Shown: positions 2,024 through 36,594 of the stretch, in pieces
Layout of the letters: the number at the start of each line of letters is the position of its first letter
How positions within the stretch are numbered: the first letter of the stretch is position 1
DNA from: SAR202 cluster bacterium
GTDB lineage: Bacteria; Chloroflexota; Dehalococcoidia; Lucifugimonadales; Lucifugimonadaceae
Assembly: GCA_009392215.1 (NCBI GenBank)
Contig: VFGZ01000037.1
Location: 1 to 47,777 of the forward strand
Direction: 5' to 3'
DNA length: 47,777 bases
Program-made: the position numbers and the translations under genes
Notes under the pieces: model-generated
Seen by the model: the letters and a program-made list of their open reading frames with translations, nothing else
Told to the model about the DNA's origin: nothing
Databases searched by the model: none

Positions 2024-3175
2024 ATGAAGATTACTGATATCAAACCGTTTCCCGTCTGGGTGGGCACACGCAACCAAATGCTAGTAAAAGTTGAAACTGA
2101 CGAAGGCATATACGGATGGGGAGAATCGGGACTCTCTAGTCGAGAAATTGCAGTCAAAGGAATGGTCGAACATTATCGCGAATTTCTTATTGGGCGTGAT
2201 CCAATGCAGCGTGGATCACTTTGGCAAGAGATGTACCGCAGTCAATACTTTGAAGGCGGACGAACCATGACTGCCGCTATTTCCGCGATCGATATAGCTC
2301 TGTACGATATTGTCGGCAAAAAACTTAATGTGCCAGTTTACGAACTTTTAGGCGGTAAACACCGTAACTGGGTCCCAACATTCGCCAGTGGAACAGGTAG
2401 TACCCCAGAAGAAATGATCGACGTCGCTCAGCGAATAATTGCTCAAGGATTTGACTGTTTTCGCCTGCACCGATCATACAAGGCAGAGTCCAAAGGCGTT
2501 TTCGAACCGCGTGAAGCAATCGCCGAAACCGCAGAAGGGCTGATAAAGGCTCGTGAAGTGCTAGGACCCCGTCCAGTCATTGGAAATGATTTCCACCACC
2601 GTTTATCAGTTGCAGAAGCTGTTTCGTTCTGCCAAATGATGCCAGACCACACTCTGGATTTTCTTGAAGAACCCATCAGAGACGAAACACCCGAGGCCTA
2701 TGAAACATTACGGAGAATGACGTCGATGCCATTTGCTCTTGGCGAGGAGTTCGCTTCAAAGTGGCAATTTCTACCTTACATCGAACGCGGTCTTGCAAAC
2801 TACATACGCGTAGATATCTGCAATGTAGGAGGAATAACCGAAGCGATGAAGGTAGCAGGATGGGCAGAAGCACATTACATCGACCTCATGCCACACAACC
2901 CTCTAGGACCAATTTGTGTTGCTGCTACTTCACATATGGCTATGGCATCAGCCAATTTCTCATGGCTGGAAATAAGAGAGTCGGCCGGCGAAAGCACCGG
3001 ATTTTACTCAAAGGAAGTCTTCCCGGTACAACCAGAAGTTACCCCCGGACGGGTAACCGTGCTGGACAGGCCAGGTCTCGGAGTGGAAGTAGATGAAGAC
3101 TCTCTCACAGAACCATTCCGGTATTCAGAAATGCCACACCTCAAGCGAAATGATGGTTCGCATACCAACTGGTAG
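2024..3175 (+). CDS. Mandelate racemase/muconate lactonizing enzyme family protein (galactonate/mannonate dehydratase-like), copy 1
   Basis: This 383-residue enolase-superfamily enzyme has an N-terminal capping domain and a C-terminal barrel. Metal and catalytic residues match the acid-sugar dehydratase pattern: D189-F-H191, E215 (DFLEEP), E241 (LGEE) and H291 (MPHNPLGP). Such enzymes abstract the proton alpha to a carboxylate and eliminate water from sugar acids. The substrate cannot be read from sequence. The start ATG follows AAAGG at about 10 nt. A close paralogue lies 31 nt downstream in the same direction, so the two are probably co-transcribed. Paralogue expansion of this family is known from SAR202 Chloroflexota. 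The length is normal for the family. Confidence 0.9.
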   Translation: MKITDIKPFPVWVGTRNQMLVKVETDEGIYGWGESGLSSREIAVKGMVEHYREFLIGRDPMQRGSLWQEMYRSQYFEGGRTMTAAISAIDIALYDIVGKKLNVPVYELLGGKHRNWVPTFASGTGSTPEEMIDVAQRIIAQGFDCFRLHRSYKAESKGVFEPREAIAETAEGLIKAREVLGPRPVIGNDFHHRLSVAEAVSFCQMMPDHTLDFLEEPIRDETPEAYETLRRMTSMPFALGEEFASKWQFLPYIERGLANYIRVDICNVGGITEAMKVAGWAEAHYIDLMPHNPLGPICVAATSHMAMASANFSWLEIRESAGESTGFYSKEVFPVQPEVTPGRVTVLDRPGLGVEVDEDSLTEPFRYSEMPHLKRNDGSHTNW

Positions 3176-3206
3176 TTCAACTAATAGAAAACACGAAAGA
3201 TTCAAA

Positions 3207-4352
3207 ATGAAAATAACCGATATAAAACCATATGCCGTTTGGGTGGGTCGCCGAAACCAAATGCTCGTAAAAATTGAAACTGACGAAGGCATACACGGAT
3301 GGGGAGAATCTGGATTCTCCGGGCGCGAGCTTGGGGTGAAGGGAATTGTCGAACATTACCGAGAATTCCTAAAAGGCCAAGACCCCATGAAACGTGGAGC
3401 CTTATGGCAAGAAATGTATCGCAGCCAGTATTTCGAAGGCGGACGAACTCTTACCGCCGCTATTTCCGCAATCGACATTGCTCTCCACGATATCGTAGGT
3501 AAAAAACTTGGAGTGCCGGTGTACGAACTGCTAGGCGGAAAACATCGCCACACAGTGCCAGTATTCGCTACTACCCCTGGCCCCTACGGACAAGACATGA
3601 TTGACCAAGCAAGGGAGTTCATGGGTAGAGGGATAAATGCATTCCGCCTGTCGTATGACAATATGGACATTCAAAATAGTGGGTTGTTCGAACCGCGCGA
3701 GTCGATTGCCAATTCTGCTGAATGGCTAATCAAAGCCCGAGAACAACTTGGCAACCAGGCAATCATGGGGGTCGATTACCACCACCGCCTATCACCGGCT
3801 GAGACTGCCTCATTTTGTCAAATGATGCCCTCACACACATTAGATTTTCTAGAAGAGCCTATCCGTGACGAATCCCCTGAAGCATACGAAGCGCTGCGAA
3901 AAATCACAGATGTTCCTTTTGCTATAGGCGAAGAGTTTGCTTCAAAATGGCAATTCTTGCCGTATATCGAACGTGGAATTACCCAATATGCGAGGGTGGA
4001 TATATGCAATGTGGGCGGATTTACTGAGTCGATGAAGGTAGCCGGATGGGCAGAAGCACACTATATCGATCTTATGCCACACAATCCCCTTGGACCAATA
4101 TGTACTGCAGCATCCGTACATCTTGGAGCTGCCGTTCCGAATTTCGCATGGCTTGAAATCAATATGGAACGTGCCGAAAACCCTGACTTAAATATCTTCC
4201 CAGAACAGGTGGTGTTCGAAGGAAACGGCTATAAGGTCTCTGATAAGCCAGGTTTAGGAGTAGAGGTTGATGAAAGTAAGTTGACAGAACCATTTGCATT
4301 TTGGGAAGCCCCACATCCACATCGCGCTGATGGGTCACACACGAACTGGTAA
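3207..4352 (+). CDS. Mandelate racemase/muconate lactonizing enzyme family protein (galactonate/mannonate dehydratase-like), copy 2
   Basis: This 381-residue tandem paralogue of the preceding gene was aligned by eye. About 101 of the first 121 residues are identical, and long nucleotide stretches are shared. The start ATG at 3207 (MKITDIKPY) is chosen because it aligns exactly with copy 1. An in-frame upstream ATG at 3093 would overlap the end of copy 1 and is rejected. Metal and catalytic motifs are retained: VDYHH (D, H), DFLEEP, AIGEE and MPHNPLGP. Divergence is concentrated after the GGKHR motif and at the C-terminus, where substrate specificity could differ. A hairpin terminator follows at about 4383. 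The reaction is inferred to be sugar-acid dehydration or racemisation. Confidence 0.9.
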   Translation: MKITDIKPYAVWVGRRNQMLVKIETDEGIHGWGESGFSGRELGVKGIVEHYREFLKGQDPMKRGALWQEMYRSQYFEGGRTLTAAISAIDIALHDIVGKKLGVPVYELLGGKHRHTVPVFATTPGPYGQDMIDQAREFMGRGINAFRLSYDNMDIQNSGLFEPRESIANSAEWLIKAREQLGNQAIMGVDYHHRLSPAETASFCQMMPSHTLDFLEEPIRDESPEAYEALRKITDVPFAIGEEFASKWQFLPYIERGITQYARVDICNVGGFTESMKVAGWAEAHYIDLMPHNPLGPICTAASVHLGAAVPNFAWLEINMERAENPDLNIFPEQVVFEGNGYKVSDKPGLGVEVDESKLTEPFAFWEAPHPHRADGSHTNW

Positions 4353-8649: not shown

Positions 8650-11499
8650 TTAGTCACGAGTAGGACGCCCAAATACATTCACATCACGCGCTATAAACGT
8701 CCCCCCAGGGTTACTAACCAATAAAGCTTTTGCTACAAGCCCTACCTCAGGCTCTTCGCCGATGATATTTGTCGAGAAATTTACGATGAACACGTTGCCA
8801 TCGATTACCCATGTCTTCCCCCTTATCACTTCTATGACCCCAGACGCTTCCATCTCTACACCACTCCCATCAACTCCACCTGAATCATCATCAATCTTTA
8901 TTTGAAATTGAATCGAAATAATCACGCCTAAATGGGAATCCAATGAATCACGTATAAATAACACTTCGGGAACCATGGAGCCCCTATACCGTCGCTCAGT
9001 TCCAGGGTGATTCATCAGCTTGGCTACCGGAGACAACGAATCTATATGTGCACCATTCAGAGACATAATCGACTTGGGACCTATCCACAAATCAAATTGT
9101 TCTCCATTAACAAGCTTAACTTGAGCAAATCTCTGATTATCTGATATCGCGACTAAGCTCCCTCGGGATCGAATGTAGTTATCAGAAACAACCGAAAGTT
9201 TCTCAATCACACCTGTATCAATGGCATATAAAACAATATCTACCTGATTACCACGCTCTACCTCTGACAAAGATTGGATGGGTTGGCCATCTTTCAAAAA
9301 ATCCTCTCCAAGAGGCTGGTCTGGCATGATTAACTCTAGCTGTCGTGTATCGGACGATTTGCCCGACAGAACTGTTACTTCACCTAACACAGCATTAACT
9401 CTTGAGATAATGCCTGCAGCTCGCTCAACTCTAGGAGATTCAACCGAAACCATAGTTGCGACATTGTAAAAAGCACCGTTTGAACCGGCTACGGTGTATA
9501 CACCGCTAACTACCCTTAACCCTGTATGCAACTCTTCAAACTTAACGCGCTGTCCATCCAATATTGTCCAGGTTCCTTCAGTAACAAGAACATTTAATGA
9601 CTGTCCGTTTTCACCCGTTATCAACAAACGTGGAGGTTCTAACCCAATACCGGTAATTGACCCGGTAAACGCTACGTTCGATCTTGCTACTACCACTAAT
9701 CGAGTCAATAAATCCGACTCAACTCCAATACGTGTAGCATCTACTACAAGATCTCCTGACTTAATCGCCGACATTGTTACATTCAAGCCATTGCGAATAA
9801 CTGGCACTTCTCCAGTAATCTTCAAGTGTATTGGAGGGCCGTCAGTCGGACGAACTGTTATCTCGTTAGCTTCTAGGTCAAGTGCTTCCACAATACCCGA
9901 AATGTGATCCTCGCCTACTGGTGCTGATGACCGAGCTCTTATGGTGGTGGCCCATAAACGGCCCCCGTAAGAGGTGATATCACCAAGAGAATCAACCTCA
10001 GGAAATTCAAATTGCACGTCAACTTGCTGTCCTGTCATAAGCAACCCAATACTAGCTGCCTCACCATCAAGAGTTATTTGAGTTTCAGAGGTTATCTTGG
10101 CGGCAACTTTCGCTTCCTGGTTATTGTTAGTTGCGATAAGTACTCCCAGTGCTTTATCCAAAGTGTCATCTAACTCGACAAGAGTAATAACTCCATGGAA
10201 GGCACGCAGCGACTCATGGTTGAGAACTGCTTCCAGTTCATCAACAAGCCGTGGCTCCTTAACTTTTATTGAAATTGCAACTCGCTGATTCTCAAAAATC
10301 GAATACCTCACTTCGAGTTCGCTACCTGCTTCAATCAAGTGTTTGGTATCCGCCAACATTTGAGGGTTCTGAGCAGTTGGAGACAGAACGTTTAATAAGT
10401 CTTGAGGAAAATCGACGATTGTACGATCGGGGTCAAAAATAAAATCTACAGAAAATGGATCTGCCTCCTGCTCACCCAAGGGCACTACCGTAAATAACGA
10501 TCCTTTAATTTCATCGACAACCGCACCAGATATCTTCAATAGCGGAGCTTCTTCATTGCGCTCACGTGCAGTTTCTTCGTAGATTTGCTTAAGCTCTGTA
10601 AACCTTTTTTTTATTTCAACAATTTGCTGACTGGCTCTTTCACGAGTGGCCTCATCGGCTCGACCGGCATCAACTACCCTTTGAAGAGCCCGTGAAGCAC
10701 CGTCAAGAGCACTCAGGTGCATACTCCTTGCATCGATCGCTATTTGAGAAAGCCTCAAAGCATCAGCTTTGTCTAACGCCAACTGACTAGCAGTCTCAAT
10801 TCGCTCAACGGTAGTGCTGGTCAACTCAAAACCAATAGCTGTAAAAACACCGTTGGCGCGATCAAGTCGAGCCACCATAGTTATTCCATCACCAACCATT
10901 GGTTCGCCGATCCCAGCAGGAACGACGACATGAACAACATCCCCGTTTCGAGTCTGAATAGAGATATCTTCTCCAACATAACGAGTAACGATCCCAACAA
11001 CATGTTTGGTGACGGTTTGAGAATGCGCCAATCTGATGATGGTTTTTAAGGCTACAAGACCACCTGAAGAGTCGCGTTTAGCTGTAGATATAACGCGATC
11101 ACCTTCTGAAACATCAGTGATGAACCCTGACTCAGAACCAATCCTCATCTCAGAATTACTGTTAAAGCCAAGAGTGATCAATCCTTTGCTTGATGCAACG
11201 ACAATGGCATTAGGAGGACGCACCTCAACAGCCGTACCGAAAATTGCCTCAATATCACCCTCATACGCCCTCACAACACTAGCGCCATTGCCACCTGAGA
11301 TCGGTCCAAACGCCAAAAATAATCCTACTAAAACGATGATTATTTTGCTCACATTAACTCGATATAAGTCAGGAACACGTCCTTGCAAACTATGCTGTGC
11401 AGGTTTCCATAAACAACCTAATCGTTCAAAGCGAATGATCGGACTTTTAACTGTCCTAGGATTGGCATCTCGTGGAAATCCTATTAGCCAATTATTCAC
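8650..11499 (-). CDS. Large membrane-anchored protein with repeated DUF5666-like beta domains
   Basis: This 949-residue protein starts at a GTG that overlaps the stop of the upstream lipoprotein gene (GTGA). GGAG lies about 8 nt before it, so the two genes are probably translationally coupled. A hydrophobic segment at about residues 52-68 would act as an uncleaved anchor or late signal. An internal GTG near 11352 would place it at the N-terminus. The rest is mostly beta-strand-rich repeats of the 'G-x-V-x-x-I-x-x-x-x-x-x-V' type seen in DUF5666 domains. One central helical, coiled-coil-like segment lies at about 235-320. No catalytic motif is seen. An extracytoplasmic structural or binding role is inferred. 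Confidence 0.7.
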   Translation of the reverse strand: MNNWLIGFPRDANPRTVKSPIIRFERLGCLWKPAQHSLQGRVPDLYRVNVSKIIIVLVGLFLAFGPISGGNGASVVRAYEGDIEAIFGTAVEVRPPNAIVVASSKGLITLGFNSNSEMRIGSESGFITDVSEGDRVISTAKRDSSGGLVALKTIIRLAHSQTVTKHVVGIVTRYVGEDISIQTRNGDVVHVVVPAGIGEPMVGDGITMVARLDRANGVFTAIGFELTSTTVERIETASQLALDKADALRLSQIAIDARSMHLSALDGASRALQRVVDAGRADEATRERASQQIVEIKKRFTELKQIYEETARERNEEAPLLKISGAVVDEIKGSLFTVVPLGEQEADPFSVDFIFDPDRTIVDFPQDLLNVLSPTAQNPQMLADTKHLIEAGSELEVRYSIFENQRVAISIKVKEPRLVDELEAVLNHESLRAFHGVITLVELDDTLDKALGVLIATNNNQEAKVAAKITSETQITLDGEAASIGLLMTGQQVDVQFEFPEVDSLGDITSYGGRLWATTIRARSSAPVGEDHISGIVEALDLEANEITVRPTDGPPIHLKITGEVPVIRNGLNVTMSAIKSGDLVVDATRIGVESDLLTRLVVVARSNVAFTGSITGIGLEPPRLLITGENGQSLNVLVTEGTWTILDGQRVKFEELHTGLRVVSGVYTVAGSNGAFYNVATMVSVESPRVERAAGIISRVNAVLGEVTVLSGKSSDTRQLELIMPDQPLGEDFLKDGQPIQSLSEVERGNQVDIVLYAIDTGVIEKLSVVSDNYIRSRGSLVAISDNQRFAQVKLVNGEQFDLWIGPKSIMSLNGAHIDSLSPVAKLMNHPGTERRYRGSMVPEVLFIRDSLDSHLGVIISIQFQIKIDDDSGGVDGSGVEMEASGVIEVIRGKTWVIDGNVFIVNFSTNIIGEEPEVGLVAKALLVSNPGGTFIARDVNVFGRPTRD

Positions 11500-24549: not shown

Positions 24550-25305
24550 TTAATTCCTTGGTGTCTCAAGAAGAACGGTCGCTCCCATTTCAATGTATTT
24601 CTCGCGCTGTGTATGATCATTATTACGGATCATCAATTTAATACCTGAGTCATTACAAGCTTTTAGTGCATACTCAATACAAAGTTCATCGGAGGCTGCC
24701 AACGGATGATTTGGGTGCGCCTCACGATCAAATGCTAGATCATTAGGACCCCAAGAAACGCAATCAACCCCAGGTTTCGCTAGTTTGGAAATATTTTCTA
24801 TAGCGTTAATCGATTCAACCTGAAGCATCAATACCCCAAAGTTGTTCCACCAATTAGCGTAACCGACACGATCGGAATCATCCGTAGGAAATTTTAAGTG
24901 GCGTTGATCTACACCAACTCTTGTGACCCCGCCCCAGCTTCGCTTTCCAACTTGCGGATAGTAAAAATAATCTACCGCATCTTGCGCAGTAGCCTCGGTC
25001 TCGGTTTGTGGAACCTCAATACTACTTGCCCCTAGATCTAACCAGTTACCAATCCGGTAAGTCATATTCGTATGTAATATCCGAAAATGAACCGGAATTG
25101 ATAAATCTTGTGCTGCAACAAATATGCTCGCTAACTGGGATTCAACCAGAGGGCTGTGTTGTGAATCTACAGCTATAAAATGGTACTCGTCGTCTCGACT
25201 CCAAATTTCTTCAATTAATGACTTGGTTGCATCCCATGGCACACTCACACCAATGGTGATATCTCCTGCCTTTATTCTCTGTTTTAAGTTCAGTTCTTCT
25301 ATCAA
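24550..25305 (-). CDS. HpcH/HpaI aldolase family protein (class II pyruvate aldolase-like)
   Basis: This 251-residue TIM-barrel protein resembles 2,4-dihydroxyhept-2-enedioate and related aldolases, which cleave or form C-C bonds using pyruvate or similar oxo-acids and a divalent metal. Motifs include AVDSQHSPL (family DxxH type), SIEVPQTE (E-x-P-Q), YYPQVGKRSWG (YPPxGxRG type), LQVES and the metal-binding region WGPNDLAF. The family's RGFG equivalent is replaced by RSWG. The apparent start is TTG 25303-25305 with only a weak A-rich SD, so the first residues are uncertain. It stands alone, with a 432-nt gap before the next gene. Confidence 0.82.
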   Translation of the reverse strand: MIEELNLKQRIKAGDITIGVSVPWDATKSLIEEIWSRDDEYHFIAVDSQHSPLVESQLASIFVAAQDLSIPVHFRILHTNMTYRIGNWLDLGASSIEVPQTETEATAQDAVDYFYYPQVGKRSWGGVTRVGVDQRHLKFPTDDSDRVGYANWWNNFGVLMLQVESINAIENISKLAKPGVDCVSWGPNDLAFDREAHPNHPLAASDELCIEYALKACNDSGIKLMIRNNDHTQREKYIEMGATVLLETPRN

Positions 25306-25737
25306 ATTAATGTTTTTCTACGGACTCATGTGGGTCAATAACAACATCATAGCTCATAACCATAAAACCCTAGACATCACACGTCACTGACATAGGTTGA
25401 CTGAATAACATCCACCAATACCAGATTCAACTACTTTCGTTAGCCTAGGTAATTAGCAATAAAGTCATCCGTAATGGAGAACCTACCCGTTTCTTTGATC
25501 CGTAAAAATTCAGAACTATATATTCTCTTTTTGAGGCCAAACATCTGGAACAATCAGCTTTCCTATGCACCCCCCATTTATATGGCAAACGAGTGATCCA
25601 ATCAAAACAAATAATTGCCTTACAGCTCCAAAGGCGAATAAGATACCGCAATATTTGAAAATTTCTGGTTCACATATCAATCGTTAGCTACCTGATTTTT
25701 TAATAAGGTTCTCTGAATATTACGGAAGGTCATTAGA
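25306..25737. other. 432-nt intergenic region upstream of the selenoprotein gene
   Basis: This divergent region separates the HpaI-like gene and the selenoprotein gene. I see no protein-like ORF, tRNA or recognisable riboswitch. GGAAGG near 25724-25729 serves as the SD for the ATG at 25738. Both promoters should lie here but were not assigned. Confidence 0.5.
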
Positions 25738-27408
25738 ATGCATTTACTCGAGGTAATAAATCCCGTTGCACAACAACGCGGAGTTATCAACTCTATGAAC
25801 GCTAGCCCACGACCAGCATCACTAGACGGAAAAACCGTCGGACTCCTATGGAGCGGAACACATGGTGGTGACATTGCACTCAAGCGTGCAGGAGAGATGC
25901 TCCAAGAACGGTTTGATGACGTAACCGTAAATTTCTACACGGGTGGGAACTACCCAGCACCACCCCCAATCGTTAAACAAGCAGGAGAGGAGTGTGACGT
26001 CGTAATCGGCGCCACAGCAGACTGAGGGACCTGTGCGTCGTGGATGGTCCACGACATGATTGAGCTCGAGAAAGTCGGGCGACCGGCCGTAGCGTTAGTC
26101 TCCGGTAGATTCGAAGAAGACGCTGTAGCCAGTTCACGTGCTTTTGGCATGCCGGATCTCCAGTGGGTAATTGTCCCAAGGATCTACCGCAACCTACAGC
26201 CGGAATTGTGCATATCTCAAACTGAAGAGGCTATTGATGACCTCATAGGGTGTCTTACCAGTTCGATATCTGAACGTAACTCTGGTATCGATACAGTAAA
26301 CACACGCGTTTATGAAGGTGAAGACCGCCATGACGCGATCCTTAAGATGAACGAAGATTTCATTCTGGAGGATCTTGGTGATGGTTTATTACTCCACCCA
26401 CCAACTCGTGAGGCTGTCGATCAAATGCTCGCCGGAACCTGCCTTCCAGCTGATCATGTAGTTTGTGATATGCCGCCTGGTTTTGGTTTAGCTACTGTAG
26501 AAAAGATTGCCATTAATGCGGTGATGGCTGGAGCAAAACCTGAACATCTGCCTGTTGTCATCGCTGCAGTAAAAGGCATGTCCAAACTGCATAAAGACGG
26601 CGGTAAATCGCTTTTGATGTCCACCAGTCCTGAGGCGCCACTGCTTGTCGTAAATGGCCCTATTGGTGAAAAGATTGGACTCAATCCAAAATCTGCATTA
26701 GGCCCCGGCAGAGACAACCAGGTCAACACTATCGTGGGACGAGCGTTCGCGCTGTGTTTCCGAAATATTGGTTATTGGTACCCGGGCTTGATGGATATGG
26801 ATACTATTGGGACTACTCGCAAGTTCATCCAATGCGTTTCTGAAAACGAAAAGATGAGTCCCTGGGACCCGCTACACGTTGATCAAGGTTTCGATGCTGA
26901 TGAAAGTACTGTGACCATTTTCGTTACCAACGGAGAACTTGACCTGCAAGATCAAGGGAATCACACAGCGGAAGGATTACTACGCACACTGGCTTATGGC
27001 TGTGTCTTTGGAACCCGTAGTTTGCAAGGCGGTAAAGTTGGTATACGCGGTGGAGCAGAACGTTTAATTTTCATGCCCCCTGACGTTGCCCAGCCTGTAG
27101 GTACCCAGGGATTTTCAAAGCAAGCTGCCAAGGAGTTTATACATGAGAACGCTGTAGGCAGTTTTGGACACATGATCGAATACATGCCATTTGAACAGGA
27201 TGGTGGTGTTCGGGAGTCACGAGTTAGTGAAGATTGGCGATGGCTTGAACAACTTACGCACAAACAGCGACAAGAAATAACTATGAACATTATGGATTCA
27301 GCGGAAAATTGCCACATCGTAGTAGTAGGTGCCGATCGAGCAAAAACTGCTTGCTTCCCATCCAGCGATGGTCCATACACAGAAGGAATAGACCAGTATT
27401 TACCTTAA
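25738..27408 (+). CDS. UGSC-family selenoprotein with in-frame UGA (selenocysteine 96)
   Basis: Read through the TGA at 26023-26025, this frame encodes 556 residues. The N-terminal 95 residues and the C-terminal 460 keep one frame, one style and family similarity on both sides. The UGA falls in U96-G97-T98-C99, a CxxC-like redox motif matching the U-G-S-C motif of UGSC (seleno)proteins. A perfect 8-bp hairpin begins 11 nt after the UGA, where a bacterial SECIS should lie. The N-terminal domain has a Rossmann-like TVGLLWSGTHGGD segment (33-45). The C-terminal part is a large domain of unknown function. The reaction is unknown; a thiol/selenol redox step is likely. An Ldh_2 dehydrogenase gene follows. 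Confidence 0.88.
26023..26025 (+). other. In-frame UGA read as selenocysteine (Sec96)
   Basis: TGA lies between GCA GAC and GGG ACC TGT, giving A-D-U-G-T-C. The frame stays open for 460 more codons. Several Cys-containing members of the family would be expected to have TGC or TGT here. Confidence 0.85.
26037..26055 (+). promoter_or_regulatory. Bacterial SECIS element candidate
   Basis: GTCGTGGA (26037-26044) pairs perfectly with TCCACGAC (26048-26055) around a TGG loop. Opening the last A-T pair gives the loop ATGGT. The stem begins 11 nt after the UGA, and the loop lies 19 nt after it. Position and apical G residues fit bacterial SECIS hairpins bound by SelB. Confidence 0.78.
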
Positions 27409-27561: not shown

Positions 27562-28647
27562 ATGCTCAAACACTTTTTAGTGCCTGAAGAAGACCAGGTA
27601 TTAGTTTCTGAAAAAACCGCACGAGCTGGAACACAGGCGGTTTTCGAAAAAATGGGTTTACCGTCGGAGGAAGCCAAGTCATGTGCAGATGTTCTAATCA
27701 CCAGTGATCTAAGGGGATGTGAGAGCCACGGGATTTCAAATATGCTGCGCGCCTATGTTGAAAGTTACAGCAATGGGTCTTACAACGCTCGCCCAAGCGT
27801 TAAAACACTGAGGGAATCGTCTGTAACAGCAACTTGGGATGGAGATCAAGGACTCGGATTGCACCTTGGTCCAAACGCAATGAACCTGGCAATAGAAAAA
27901 GCCCGAGAACATGGCATGGGTGCTGTCGCAGTTAAAAATACTGCTCACTTCGGAATGCTCGCATATTATGTTTTGCAAGCGATACAACAAGACATGATTG
28001 GAATGGCAATGGTTTCGGCAGGTGGTGGAGCAATGTTGCCAGTACACGGTGCCGAACCGGCATTCGGAACCCAGCCTATCGCGTGGGGCGCACCAGCAAA
28101 CAAAATGCCTCCCTTCGTATTTGATGTAGCGACCACACAAGTTGCGGCAAACAAGTTATTACTGACGCGACGAATAGGTTCTAAAATCGAACCCGGATGG
28201 ATCGCTAACCTTGATGGATCACCAATCATGGAAGCAGTTGACGTGCCGGAATTCGGGCAGTTCAAGATGCTGCCATTTGGTGGGATCAGAGAAAACGGCG
28301 GACACAAAGGATACGGATTTGCAGCAATAGCCGACATCATGTCGGGCATATTGTCAGGCAATGGTCCCGGATTTATTGCTGATAGAAGTTATTCATTCTT
28401 TGTCATGGCATTCAATGTTGACGCTTTCATTGATGTCGACGATTTCAAAGACGACATGGATAAACTGCTGCACAAACTCGCTAACACCAAACCCGCTCCC
28501 GGTCACGAAAGGGTTTTCTATGCAGGGCTACCAGAACATGAAGAAACTGAAATTCGCCAGAAAAACGGAATCCCATATCATCGAGAAGTCGTTGACTGGT
28601 TTAACTCTATAAACTCGGAATTAAATCTAGGAATATCAATGCCTTGA
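27562..28647 (+). CDS. Ldh_2 family (malate/L-lactate/ureidoglycolate-type) NAD(P)-dependent dehydrogenase
   Basis: This 361-residue protein is of the Ldh_2 (YlbC/ComC/AllD) family, which oxidises 2-hydroxy-acids with NAD(P) and has a fold unlike classical lactate dehydrogenases. Motifs include LRGCESHGISN (R51, SHG 55-57), the catalytic-type TAHFG (H129), FGTQPIAWG and the C-terminal GGHKGYGFA region. The substrate is not predictable. It starts 153 nt after the selenoprotein gene in the same direction, so the two may form one unit. Small dyads follow its stop codon. Confidence 0.92.
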   Translation: MLKHFLVPEEDQVLVSEKTARAGTQAVFEKMGLPSEEAKSCADVLITSDLRGCESHGISNMLRAYVESYSNGSYNARPSVKTLRESSVTATWDGDQGLGLHLGPNAMNLAIEKAREHGMGAVAVKNTAHFGMLAYYVLQAIQQDMIGMAMVSAGGGAMLPVHGAEPAFGTQPIAWGAPANKMPPFVFDVATTQVAANKLLLTRRIGSKIEPGWIANLDGSPIMEAVDVPEFGQFKMLPFGGIRENGGHKGYGFAAIADIMSGILSGNGPGFIADRSYSFFVMAFNVDAFIDVDDFKDDMDKLLHKLANTKPAPGHERVFYAGLPEHEETEIRQKNGIPYHREVVDWFNSINSELNLGISMP

Positions 28648-34212: not shown

Positions 34213-36594
34213 TTAAGTAAGAGCTCCGGCTTTTTCCATACGGTCAATATCCTCATCGGAATAACCGAGAATAGAACGCAGCACAAACCTGGTATCACCA
34301 CCAAGATCAGGTGGGCGTCCAAAGTTCAAAATAATGTCGCCATCCCAGTGCCACGGCAAGGTAGGCAAGAGTCTGCTTTCACCATTCCTGTCATGGAGCA
34401 TTTCGAAAAAGCCGCGTTCATTCAAATGCTCGTTGTACGTCAGTTGTTCACTGGTAAATGAAGCGCTGGCCGGGACACCAGCTTCCTGCAAAATCTCCAT
34501 TGCTTTTTCTGGGTTGATACTGGAGATCCAGGCATTAATCGATTCTTCTACCACCCGTGACCGCTGTCTGCGCTGCTCTGCATTCAAATCCATGAGATCT
34601 GCGGGGACACCAACTATTTTGGCAAGCCTTCTCCACTGATCTTGATCGGTGACAGCGATCGCAACCCAAGAATCATCTCCAAGGGCTTTAAACGCTCCAT
34701 GAGGATAAAAGTTTTCATCTGCGTTACCACTTCTTTCAGATAGATGGCCAGTCAACTGGTATTCGATGAGCGGTCCCGGCATTGTTGCCAGTACTGCCTC
34801 GACCATGGAGAAGTCAATATGGCTGCCTTCCGATGTATTCCGACTAGATCGTAAGGCTGCTACCGCTGCATGAGCCAGTAACATCCCGCATAAGGGATCT
34901 GCCCATGCCATGCCAATCGACGGTGGATTTTCCGGATATCCGTTCAATCCTGCAAATCCTGTGTATATCTGTAGAAGCGTCCCGTAAGCAGCATAGTGAC
35001 GGCTAGGGCCCGATTGCCCGGTACCTGACGCTGAGATCATCACCAGTTTGGGATTTATCTCCTTGAGAACATCCCAACCCAGCCCGAGCCTTTCCATCAC
35101 ACCAGGAGCAAAGTTTTCTACGATGATGTCACTTTTGGCCACAAGGGCCTTTATCGCAGCAAGGCCATCCTCAGACTTCAGGTTAAGAGTAATTCCTAAT
35201 TTGCCCTGTCCAAGTACATCGTGTAGTTGGCCTACGCGACCAGGATCCGGACGACTAGAAGTCTCAACCTTTACAACTTCAGCTCCCATAGACGCCAAGT
35301 AACGAGTACAAGTTGGTCCTGCTATTACCCAGCTAAGATCCGCAACTCTCACACCTTTTAGCGGGAGATAACCGCGTGAGGAATCACCAGCAGATTGATC
35401 ATTATTTGAAACTGACCGTTCCAGCCAGGAAATGTCGACAGACGATTCATGATCCACCTTTTTCTTACTGATCGTTGCGTTTGAATTAGCTTTGCTTATT
35501 CTGAACGGCCTACCCGGAACCTTAATCTCTGACTGCCTCTCGATCTCCACGAAATCAAAATAATCCCGTGCCGCCAGTTGTTCCGAGTCCAGATGTTCTG
35601 CAGGATTCATCATCGGAAAACATGGAATGTGATTCTCCTGCAAGAGATGAAATAACTCTAACTTGGGAGACTTTGAAGTCCACTCAGAAAGGAGGGCAAT
35701 AATTTCTTCTGCGTTTTCCTGTCGTAGCTTCCGATCAGCAAATTTAGGATCAGAACCCCAATCCGGACTACCTAGTAATTTGAGAAAGTTTTTCCACTGA
35801 CGTTCTTCCCGCGGAGATATCGCAATGTGTCCATCCGACGCAGGAAGTAGGGCAAGGTTCGGTCCTGGAACCGACTCAAGCTTTCGAGGTGGTCCGGGTT
35901 TACCGAAGGATCCCGCAGAAAGACCGGTTATGTCCATGAAGGCAAGAGCCTCCTGCATAGAAACATCAATGACGGCACCTTGCCCTATCTCTTCTTTCCT
36001 GAAGATTCCAAACATTGCTGAACATGCAGCTGCAACACCAGCTACGAATTCCGACTGTTCACCACTGGCCCTGACCGGTGGGGTTTTTTCAGGATTTTCT
36101 ACTGGGCCGATAAGACTTTTAGATAAGCCACTTGAATGAAAAATTACAAGATCAGATCCAAGGTATTCCGAAAAAGGTCCTGTAAGACCAAATGGAGTTA
36201 TATAAGTGATCACCAAATTGGGATTCAAACCCCTCAATGAATCCGCATCCAATGACAGTTTTTTCAAATCATTAAGGTGAAAGCCACTCAAAACCAGGTC
36301 AGCATCGACCGCTAATCGATTAAACGTATCCAAGCCATCACTGTCTTTAAGATCGAGATCAACAATACGCTTCCCAAGATGTTGAGAAGCAGATACGGCA
36401 ACAGCAACGCTTACGTCCTCGTGACCGTTTTGACCCACATCTGACGCTGAATTTTCGCCTGCCTGTTGTATTTTTATTACGTCGGCACCCAGTTCAGCAA
36501 AAAGGCGAGCAGATACTGAACTCGCCAATCGAGAACCAATTTCTAAAACCCTGAAACCTGTTAGGAACTCTTGTTGATTATGGGTCTTGGCCAT
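34213..36594 (-). CDS. Fused double-domain CaiB/BaiF CoA-transferase family protein
   Basis: This 793-residue protein carries two family III CoA-transferase modules in tandem, about 1-395 and 410-793, joined by a Ser-rich linker. A single CaiB/BaiF subunit is normally about 400 residues. The C-terminal copy keeps the Asp of the usual MAWADPLCG site (about residue 563). In the N-terminal copy the aligned position reads SEFVAG (about 180), so the nucleophile appears to be Glu. One half may thus be degenerate. The enzymes move CoA between acids. The gene is last in a minus-strand operon with MaoC-type and hydrolase genes, and the gap upstream is 41 nt. Confidence 0.88.
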   Translation of the reverse strand: MAKTHNQQEFLTGFRVLEIGSRLASSVSARLFAELGADVIKIQQAGENSASDVGQNGHEDVSVAVAVSASQHLGKRIVDLDLKDSDGLDTFNRLAVDADLVLSGFHLNDLKKLSLDADSLRGLNPNLVITYITPFGLTGPFSEYLGSDLVIFHSSGLSKSLIGPVENPEKTPPVRASGEQSEFVAGVAAACSAMFGIFRKEEIGQGAVIDVSMQEALAFMDITGLSAGSFGKPGPPRKLESVPGPNLALLPASDGHIAISPREERQWKNFLKLLGSPDWGSDPKFADRKLRQENAEEIIALLSEWTSKSPKLELFHLLQENHIPCFPMMNPAEHLDSEQLAARDYFDFVEIERQSEIKVPGRPFRISKANSNATISKKKVDHESSVDISWLERSVSNNDQSAGDSSRGYLPLKGVRVADLSWVIAGPTCTRYLASMGAEVVKVETSSRPDPGRVGQLHDVLGQGKLGITLNLKSEDGLAAIKALVAKSDIIVENFAPGVMERLGLGWDVLKEINPKLVMISASGTGQSGPSRHYAAYGTLLQIYTGFAGLNGYPENPPSIGMAWADPLCGMLLAHAAVAALRSSRNTSEGSHIDFSMVEAVLATMPGPLIEYQLTGHLSERSGNADENFYPHGAFKALGDDSWVAIAVTDQDQWRRLAKIVGVPADLMDLNAEQRRQRSRVVEESINAWISSINPEKAMEILQEAGVPASASFTSEQLTYNEHLNERGFFEMLHDRNGESRLLPTLPWHWDGDIILNFGRPPDLGGDTRFVLRSILGYSDEDIDRMEKAGALT

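Follow-up and report, generated by a model that had tools for sequence, protein, structure and literature searches.

The UGA codon at 26023-26025 in a contig of SAR202, a lineage that abounds in deep ocean waters, is almost certainly decoded by SelB, with the hairpin at 26037-26055 acting as its bSECIS, so that a 556-residue selenoprotein with a Sec96/Cys99 pair would be made from what looks like two genes. Below, the window is the whole stretch of DNA that was analysed, 47,777 nucleotides long. The features needed to follow the argument are these:

24550-25305, opposite strand: HpcH/HpaI aldolase family gene, the upstream neighbour
25724-25729, forward strand: Shine-Dalgarno-like GGAAGG, 8 nt upstream of the start codon, read directly
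25738-27408, forward strand: selenoprotein gene, 556 residues, Sec at 96, one internal TGA; start ATG 25738 and stop TAA 27406-27408 read directly
25753-26259, forward strand: UGSC domain (Pfam PF24696), residues 6-174, modelled as five strand-helix units
26023-26025, forward strand: UGA read as Sec96, TGA in 40/40 homologous loci
26032-26034, forward strand: TGT for Cys99, putative resolving thiol of the U-G-T-C motif, TGT/TGC in 40/40 loci
26037-26055, forward strand: candidate bSECIS hairpin, 8-bp stem 26037-26044 / 26048-26055, loop TGG 26045-26047
26305-27405, forward strand: C-terminal domain (residues 190-556), outside any Pfam family, probable substrate-binding partner
27562-28647: Ldh_2 family dehydrogenase gene, next gene downstream

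Direct reading bears out the frame described in an earlier sequence-only reading of this DNA: 25738-27408 is open save for the TGA, which lies in the context A-D-U-G-T-C. The gene frame holds this one internal stop, compared with 13 to 40 in the five alternative frames. At seven places in the window a TGA separates two open runs of 60 codons or longer; the TGA at 26023-26025 is followed by 460 open codons, as against 60 to 168 at the other six. A GGAG-type site stands upstream of the start in most homologues. Plain ORF calling of 25738-27408 gives exactly two ORFs, one of 95 residues and one of 454 residues from ATG 26044, just the pair of truncated genes foreseen for a standard gene caller; it thereby splits the gene and loses the active site. 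The source assembly (G000) comprises 1.81 Mb in 69 contigs and is 84.8% complete. Elsewhere in the window we noted a 949-residue ORF without a Pfam match at E 0.001 (8650-11499, reverse strand), a 793-residue protein with two tandem CoA-transferase family III stretches (34213-36594, reverse strand) and two overlapping mandelate racemase/enolase-superfamily genes side by side (2024-4352, forward strand).

The strongest support for recoding comes from the homologues. A protein scan of GTDB species genomes with six peptide patterns yielded 40 relatives; one pattern (WMVHDMIE) overlaps the hairpin, so some bias toward that stretch is possible, and the other five lie outside it. Thirty-nine of the relatives are labelled Chloroflexi, Chloroflexota, Dehalococcoidia, SAR202 or Ca. 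Lucifugimonas marina, and one is a Deltaproteobacterium (L067). The nearest, from a SAR202 cluster bacterium, is 98% identical, in line with the taxon suggested in the sequence-only reading, and the homologues as a group are co-linear with the window protein at 50-98% identity, a few being cut by contig ends. Every one of the 40 loci, the complete chromosome CP046147 (Ca. Lucifugimonas marina) included, keeps one frame across the whole protein, or as far as the contig reaches, with TGA at residue 96 and TGY at 99, which upholds the original selenoprotein claim. The description of U-G-T-C as a variant of U-G-S-C was right as to threonine for serine, but the change is not peculiar to this gene, since all 40 loci of the subfamily have T. 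Among 14 plasmid-borne relatives fetched out of 24 plasmid records with a match, residue 96 is Cys in 11 (nine C-G-S-C, two C-S-T-C), TGA in two and Met in one, so that homologues with Cys at this position, a check proposed at the outset, do occur. The gene thus presents an in-frame UGA at a conserved redox position at which homologues carry UGA or Cys. The Met form, on a Sporomusa termitida plasmid, has lost both redox residues (M-G-T-S); it is a fused 574-residue homologue (L073, 4731-6455) flanked by genes for a LysR regulator and an FAD-dependent oxidoreductase. On the Acidovorax sp. T1 plasmid (L070, 5923-7311), the PLSDB gene table, which describes itself as incomplete, has an entry for the 96-residue part upstream of the TGA but none for the stretch past it.

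Selection acts on both sides of the codon: in nine pairwise comparisons with relatives, pN is far below pS before and after the TGA, and over residues 97-102 pN is zero in eight of the nine. A true stop, with a 95-residue protein followed by a 454-residue one re-initiating at ATG 26044, would agree with plain ORF calling, and residue 103 is ATG in 36/37 aligned genes. We nevertheless consider it very improbable. That ATG is part of the hairpin, has no obvious ribosome site upstream and is replaced by AGT in the Deltaproteobacterial L067; residues 97-102, between the stop and the ATG, are unchanged at the amino-acid level in 8/9 comparisons; Cys replaces the stop in distant relatives, Variovorax boronicumulans having a continuous 545-residue frame; and the genome has the Sec machinery. 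An error of sequencing or assembly at the TGA, or a gene decaying into a pseudogene, deserves almost no credence: single errors do occur in incomplete drafts such as the one to which this contig belongs, but the TGA is common to 40/40 loci from other assemblies and purifying selection is seen on both sides. We reject true stop, error and pseudogene alike on these last two grounds, and take the UGA to be a selenocysteine codon.

The perfect 8-bp hairpin with a TGG loop that had been predicted past the UGA is present at 26037-26055, with 11 nt separating the UGA from the stem and 19 nt separating it from the loop. Rules given for bSECIS elements in the available part of PMC13188914 ask for a loop of 3-9 nt, a stem of 4-16 bp, G in the first two loop positions, a distance of 16-37 nt from the UGA and an MFE at or below -7.5; the hairpin agrees with the four bSECIS rules of that paper, having a 3-nt UGG loop with G at position 2, 8 bp, 19 nt and -12.6 kcal/mol. 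This energy, that of the 23-nt core, has a z of -3.27 with 0/200 shuffles as good. Folded within 56 nt of context, the hairpin does not stand out energetically (z -0.37, 66/200 shuffles as good), and of six hairpin cores folded, that of L084 is no better than its shuffles. Folding energy alone is therefore no proof of the hairpin; conservation is. An Rfam scan of the window at gathering scores gave no hit.

Two lines of conservation evidence bear on the stem. The first is synonymous variation, which was scored in 37 aligned genes over 231 columns with a conserved residue, with expectation taken from codon usage and four of the 40 loci (L040, L064, L066, L068) left out as incomplete. The ratio of synonymous diversity to expectation is 0.46 over the eight scorable codons of 97-108, compared with a mean of 0.91 over the 231 columns, and 100,000 random draws gave no value that low. 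In the stem, codons A100, S101, H105 and D106 retain just 0.07-0.13 of expected diversity and G97 is also reduced (0.22); T98, C99 and I108 are not. The second is covariation among 63 sequences, 52 of them distinct, made up of the window, the 40 loci and 22 further Sec contexts chosen by motif and open frame rather than by hairpin, a filter under which 11/32 survey and plasmid loci yielded no Sec context. Standard stem pairs fill 93.0% of cells in the 52 distinct rows, against 84.2% in shuffles, and pairing falls to 17-45% when the partner strand is slid. Cells changed on both sides, which count sequences and not events, number 24 against 4.1 in shuffles, and the stem covariation score is 0.224 against 0.081. 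At 26043-26049, 39 rows have G-C and 12 have C-G. The outermost two pairs are each unpaired in 10/52 rows, the control slid by -3 also has five pairs changed on both sides, and 4/500 shuffles reach five. The nine C-G-S-C relatives keep 8, 4, 7, 7, 5, 4, 6, 2 and 4 of the eight pairs; hairpin loss in Cys forms is thus only partial and offers no clean argument. Agreement with the bSECIS rules, compensatory changes and suppressed synonymous variation together sustain the SECIS claim.

The machinery that the prediction demanded of a SAR202 host (selA, selB, selC and selD) is all in the same genome. selB scores 329.5 bits, selA 513.1 and selD 373.6, each over its family cut-off, and a tRNA-Sec with anticodon TCA is present. 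The selD gene (contig C22, locus L015) carries an in-frame TGA of its own (A-C-A-G-U-A-G-K), so the Sec machinery would itself depend on Sec. Across the phylum, 33 of 301 sampled genomes match our alignment, some in the C-terminal domain only. selB exceeds its cut-off in 31/33 genomes with a match and 8/20 without (Fisher P 2.9e-5; the genomes are not independent, and those without a match were taken from the top of the list, mostly from the same class, and not at random). The two matching drafts with selB below cut-off are G217 (86% complete) and G259 (89%); G259 carries a TGA-bearing UGSC gene yet has no selB over the cut-off, which counts against the explanation favoured here.

The kind of protein concerned is already known: the UGSC family and a UGSC fusion were published in 2008 (PMC2398784). 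In the accessible text of that paper UGSC is a major marine selenoprotein family, with 255 Sec and 21 Cys forms, and is supposed to have a Trx-like fold; the part of PMC9402790 available to us places it among the commonest marine selenoprotein families, at 8.2% of selenoprotein genes. The window protein matches PF24696 at 106.9 bits (cut-off 25), in keeping with the family named in the sequence-only reading, and scores 94.8 bits against a cut-off of 125 for the NCBIfam equivalog NF041046; judged by its sequence, it is a divergent UGSC subfamily. The 2008 data, from Global Ocean Sampling, include a UGSC fusion to an unnamed domain called Unknown_1 (PMC2398784, Fig. S1A, in the part seen), and the window gene is likely this UGSC/Unknown_1 fusion, with Unknown_1 corresponding to residues 190-556. 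The early description of a 556-residue redox protein therefore holds for the length, but it omitted both the family and fusion already in print and the separate domain that forms the C-terminal two-thirds. What is added here is a beta/alpha fold model, a possible distant tie to GrdB and PrdB (Sec-bearing subunits of glycine, betaine and D-proline reductases, with which anaerobic bacteria degrade glycine and proline), the partner domain and a thioredoxin reductase neighbourhood.

In an AlphaFold2 model built from 26 sequences (mean pLDDT 77.9), the UGSC domain consists of five successive strand-helix units, and Sec96 sits in the loop that joins strand 3 to helix 3. The predicted fold of the Sec domain is alternating beta/alpha and flavodoxin/Rossmann-like, not thioredoxin-like as PMC2398784 supposed. 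No thioredoxin fold surrounds the UxxC motif in the model, and none is found among the 50 listed of 1759 PDB matches. The Foldseek matches listed from the PDB include TIR domains and WrbA, at low TM-scores. Searched by sequence, the PDB has no match for the whole protein and, for the UGSC profile, only a weak one to cysteine synthase (E 0.019). No virus-borne copies turned up in one IMG/VR scan with two patterns.

The C-terminal domain has no Pfam match for residues 190-556 up to E 10, no PDB match by sequence up to E 1 and no viral match below E 1.6. Its AlphaFold2 model (pLDDT 78.6) has no PDB structure match at E 0.001 or better; the best Foldseek match, a Leishmania fumarate hydratase (E 0.04, rmsd 21), was not used. 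The distribution of this domain is more telling. In many relatives it and UGSC are encoded by separate adjoining genes, in either order, such split forms being seen in haloarchaea, Roseovarius, Arthrobacter and Variovorax SRS16. Fused forms also exist without Sec, in Variovorax boronicumulans (Cys, one continuous 545-residue frame) and in Sporomusa (neither residue). Since relatives have them adjoining or fused, the two domains probably work together as a single functional unit. On contig C40 of the window's own genome (locus L020), a 345-residue C-domain gene (420-1457) precedes a second UGSC gene (1480-2019) with its own in-frame TGA and a U-G-S-C motif, followed by a metal-dependent hydrolase-like and then a glyoxalase-like gene, both named by eye.

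A clue to the chemistry of the Sec domain came from the NCBIfam model for glycine reductase selenoprotein B (TIGR01917), which matched weakly around the motif (E 0.05 and 0.18) in two of five proteins scanned, both of them relatives and not the window protein. Because of these matches, PF07355 proteins of the same phylum were fetched. In all 16 Chloroflexota PF07355 proteins that reach the model end, a TGA stands right there, followed by about 80 more residues (L105-L112, L123-L125, L127, L128, L130, L132, L133). Their motifs are U-G-T-C (6), U-G-T-G (5), U-G-S-C (3) and, in the rest, U-G-T-A or U-G-S-G. PF07355 (GRDB) thus ends just before the Sec codon, and annotation by it misses the active site. 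It has no match in the window protein up to E 10 and none in the host genome; ending where it does, it would miss the matching part of the window protein anyway.

The profiles compared included 14 of the 16 GrdB-like loci (alignment A4; a 17th, L113, is cut short), six of nine short PrdB-like loci (A8; the other three have no continuation past a Sec motif), 12 of 15 PF09338 loci (A7) and 25/40 of the UGSC loci (A1, narrow); a further alignment, A5, holds 36/40. With hhalign, 10 UGSC domains align to the 14 GrdB-like proteins Sec on Sec with P 1.2e-5, over about 80 residues. The narrow alignment A1 gives a probability of 18% and P 0.0013 for the GrdB match. UGSC also aligns Sec on Sec with the PrdB-like six (P 6.1e-4); for scale, PrdB-like against GrdB-like gives 1.8e-29. 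The likeness could instead be convergence of unrelated proteins around U-G-T-C after a beta strand, which would fit an alignment of only some 80 columns that loses most of its significance on masking the motif. We think this unlikely, while giving it some weight. With the four motif columns masked, the alignment keeps its register with a score of 27.1 (P 0.0065), higher than 200 column-shuffled controls (at most 21.4) and a reversed alignment (17.0), these controls being run with the unmasked profile, and higher than the unrelated PF09338 set against the same UGSC profile (P 0.046, score 21.4). The same register recurs with a second family, the PrdB-like one, which is closely akin to GrdB. Short of proof, the sequence comparison makes the UGSC Sec domain look like a distant relative of the region of GrdB and PrdB that carries Sec. 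Compared with 12 proteins of PF09338, the family of the GrdB partner, the C-terminal domain gives no alignment (P 0.42), so that no pyruvoyl partner of the GrdE/PrdA type is indicated, and a PDB sequence search for GrdB-like proteins gave nothing useful.

Gene neighbourhoods in the relatives suggest where the reducing power may come from. In Arthrobacter ERGS1:01, trxB-trxA lies directly before the C-domain and UGSC genes, and in Roseovarius THAF8 the order is Cdomain-UGSC-trxB, both trxB genes scoring over the TIGR01292 cut-off. Weaker thioredoxin-reductase-like genes adjoin the module in two Neorhizobium and in Haloterrigena turkmenica, and in Variovorax boronicumulans one is a single gene removed; the Haloterrigena gene reaches 231 of 343 bits for TIGR01292, below cut-off, and the other weaker ones were found by tblastn alone. 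Such a gene is therefore close by in 6/14 fetched plasmid loci, only two passing TIGR01292, a count that omits the distant hits at L051, L054 and L072 as well as L104, which has one such gene near by. Survey loci and later plasmid loci carry flanks of 1.5 kb, so the neighbour scan covers near genes only. The fused SAR202 genes have no thioredoxin reductase within a gene or two, the hits at L051 and L054 being more than 3 kb off. Some relatives sit amid genes with a catabolic look, among them those for CoA transferase, CoA ester lyase, TRAP and TTT binding proteins and a member of the isocitrate lyase/PEP mutase family. A conserved SAR202 operon was considered as a substrate clue and discarded, as no cluster among 352 neighbour ORFs of 41 loci (the 40 relatives and the window) occurs in more than seven loci. 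An N-methyltryptophan oxidase/SoxA-like gene lies directly downstream in 4/41 loci and elsewhere in two more, the Ldh_2 gene recurs solely in the two closest relatives (3/41 loci), and an aldolase like that at 24550-25305 is found at varied places in 4/41.

The available part of PMC3091704 describes a model for PrdB in which a selenolate attacks the substrate, a selenoether forms, cysteine resolves it to a mixed selenide-sulphide and the enzyme is regenerated; the electrons for glycine reduction pass from NADPH through thioredoxin reductase to thioredoxin. By analogy, the N-terminal domain of the window protein would be a flavodoxin/Rossmann-like redox module, a putative distant homologue of the Sec part of GrdB and PrdB, and the C-terminal domain would bind a small organic substrate and offer it to the selenolate. 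Attack by the selenolate would lead to reductive cleavage or reduction, Cys99 would resolve the selenium adduct to a selenenyl-sulfide, and thioredoxin with NADPH-dependent thioredoxin reductase would restore the selenol/thiol pair. The second copy in the host genome would be the split, two-gene form of the same system. The explanation as a whole, selenoprotein decoding together with a GrdB-like selenol/thiol reductase that draws on thioredoxin and works on a small organic substrate, is the one we favour, with moderate confidence.

A selenoprotein of this kind might instead be a general thiol-disulfide or peroxide reductase with an antioxidant role, rather than a substrate reductase of the GrdB type. 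Many UxxC selenoproteins are thiol oxidoreductases and a Trx-like fold has been supposed for UGSC (PMC2398784, in the part seen), the lack of conserved neighbours in SAR202 is what a housekeeping redox protein would show, and a reference title in PMC3091704, itself seen in part, speaks of peroxidase activity of GrdB. Against this role, the modelled fold is not that of thioredoxin, and two features point to a specific substrate: the partner domain (about 370 residues), which is constant, and the catabolic-type settings of some relatives, with CoA transferase, CoA ester lyase and TTT/TRAP binding proteins. We regard an antioxidant function as rather unlikely on balance. Returning to the GrdB-like reductase, a tentative extension is that UGSC and its partner domain make up a third branch of the GrdB/PrdB type, a thioredoxin-fed reductase or cleaver of a small organic compound, built as one chain or from two genes. 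Such a branch might have spread beyond amino-acid-fermenting anaerobes to SAR202, with a Cys form in Proteobacteria, Actinobacteria and haloarchaea, and its putative substrate-binding domain would have a modelled fold without a confident PDB match.

Literature on UGSC selenoproteins, in the portions available, gives no function for the family and makes no mention of a tie to GrdB or PrdB; in the accessible parts of the open-licence literature SAR202 is not paired with selenoprotein or UGSC, a co-mention with selenocysteine aside. The combination of the putative GrdB/PrdB tie, the partner domain and the thioredoxin reductase neighbours gives an orphan family a candidate reaction type that can be put to the test.

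Among known systems, flavodoxin-like folds such as WrbA resemble the model, WrbA being a Foldseek match at E 6e-4 with low TM-scores (0.17 of the query and 0.39 of the target). Nothing in the UGSC protein points to flavin binding. With the UGSC family the window protein shares the UxxC motif, an in-frame UGA with a bSECIS and the existence of Cys forms, and it differs in having T for S and in its fusion to a domain of about 370 residues. Unlike GrdB and PrdB (PF07355, TIGR01917, TIGR04483), it lacks the N-terminal GrdB half; like them, it has a strand, U-x-x-C, and then a helix and G-x-P, in the stretch that aligns Sec on Sec.
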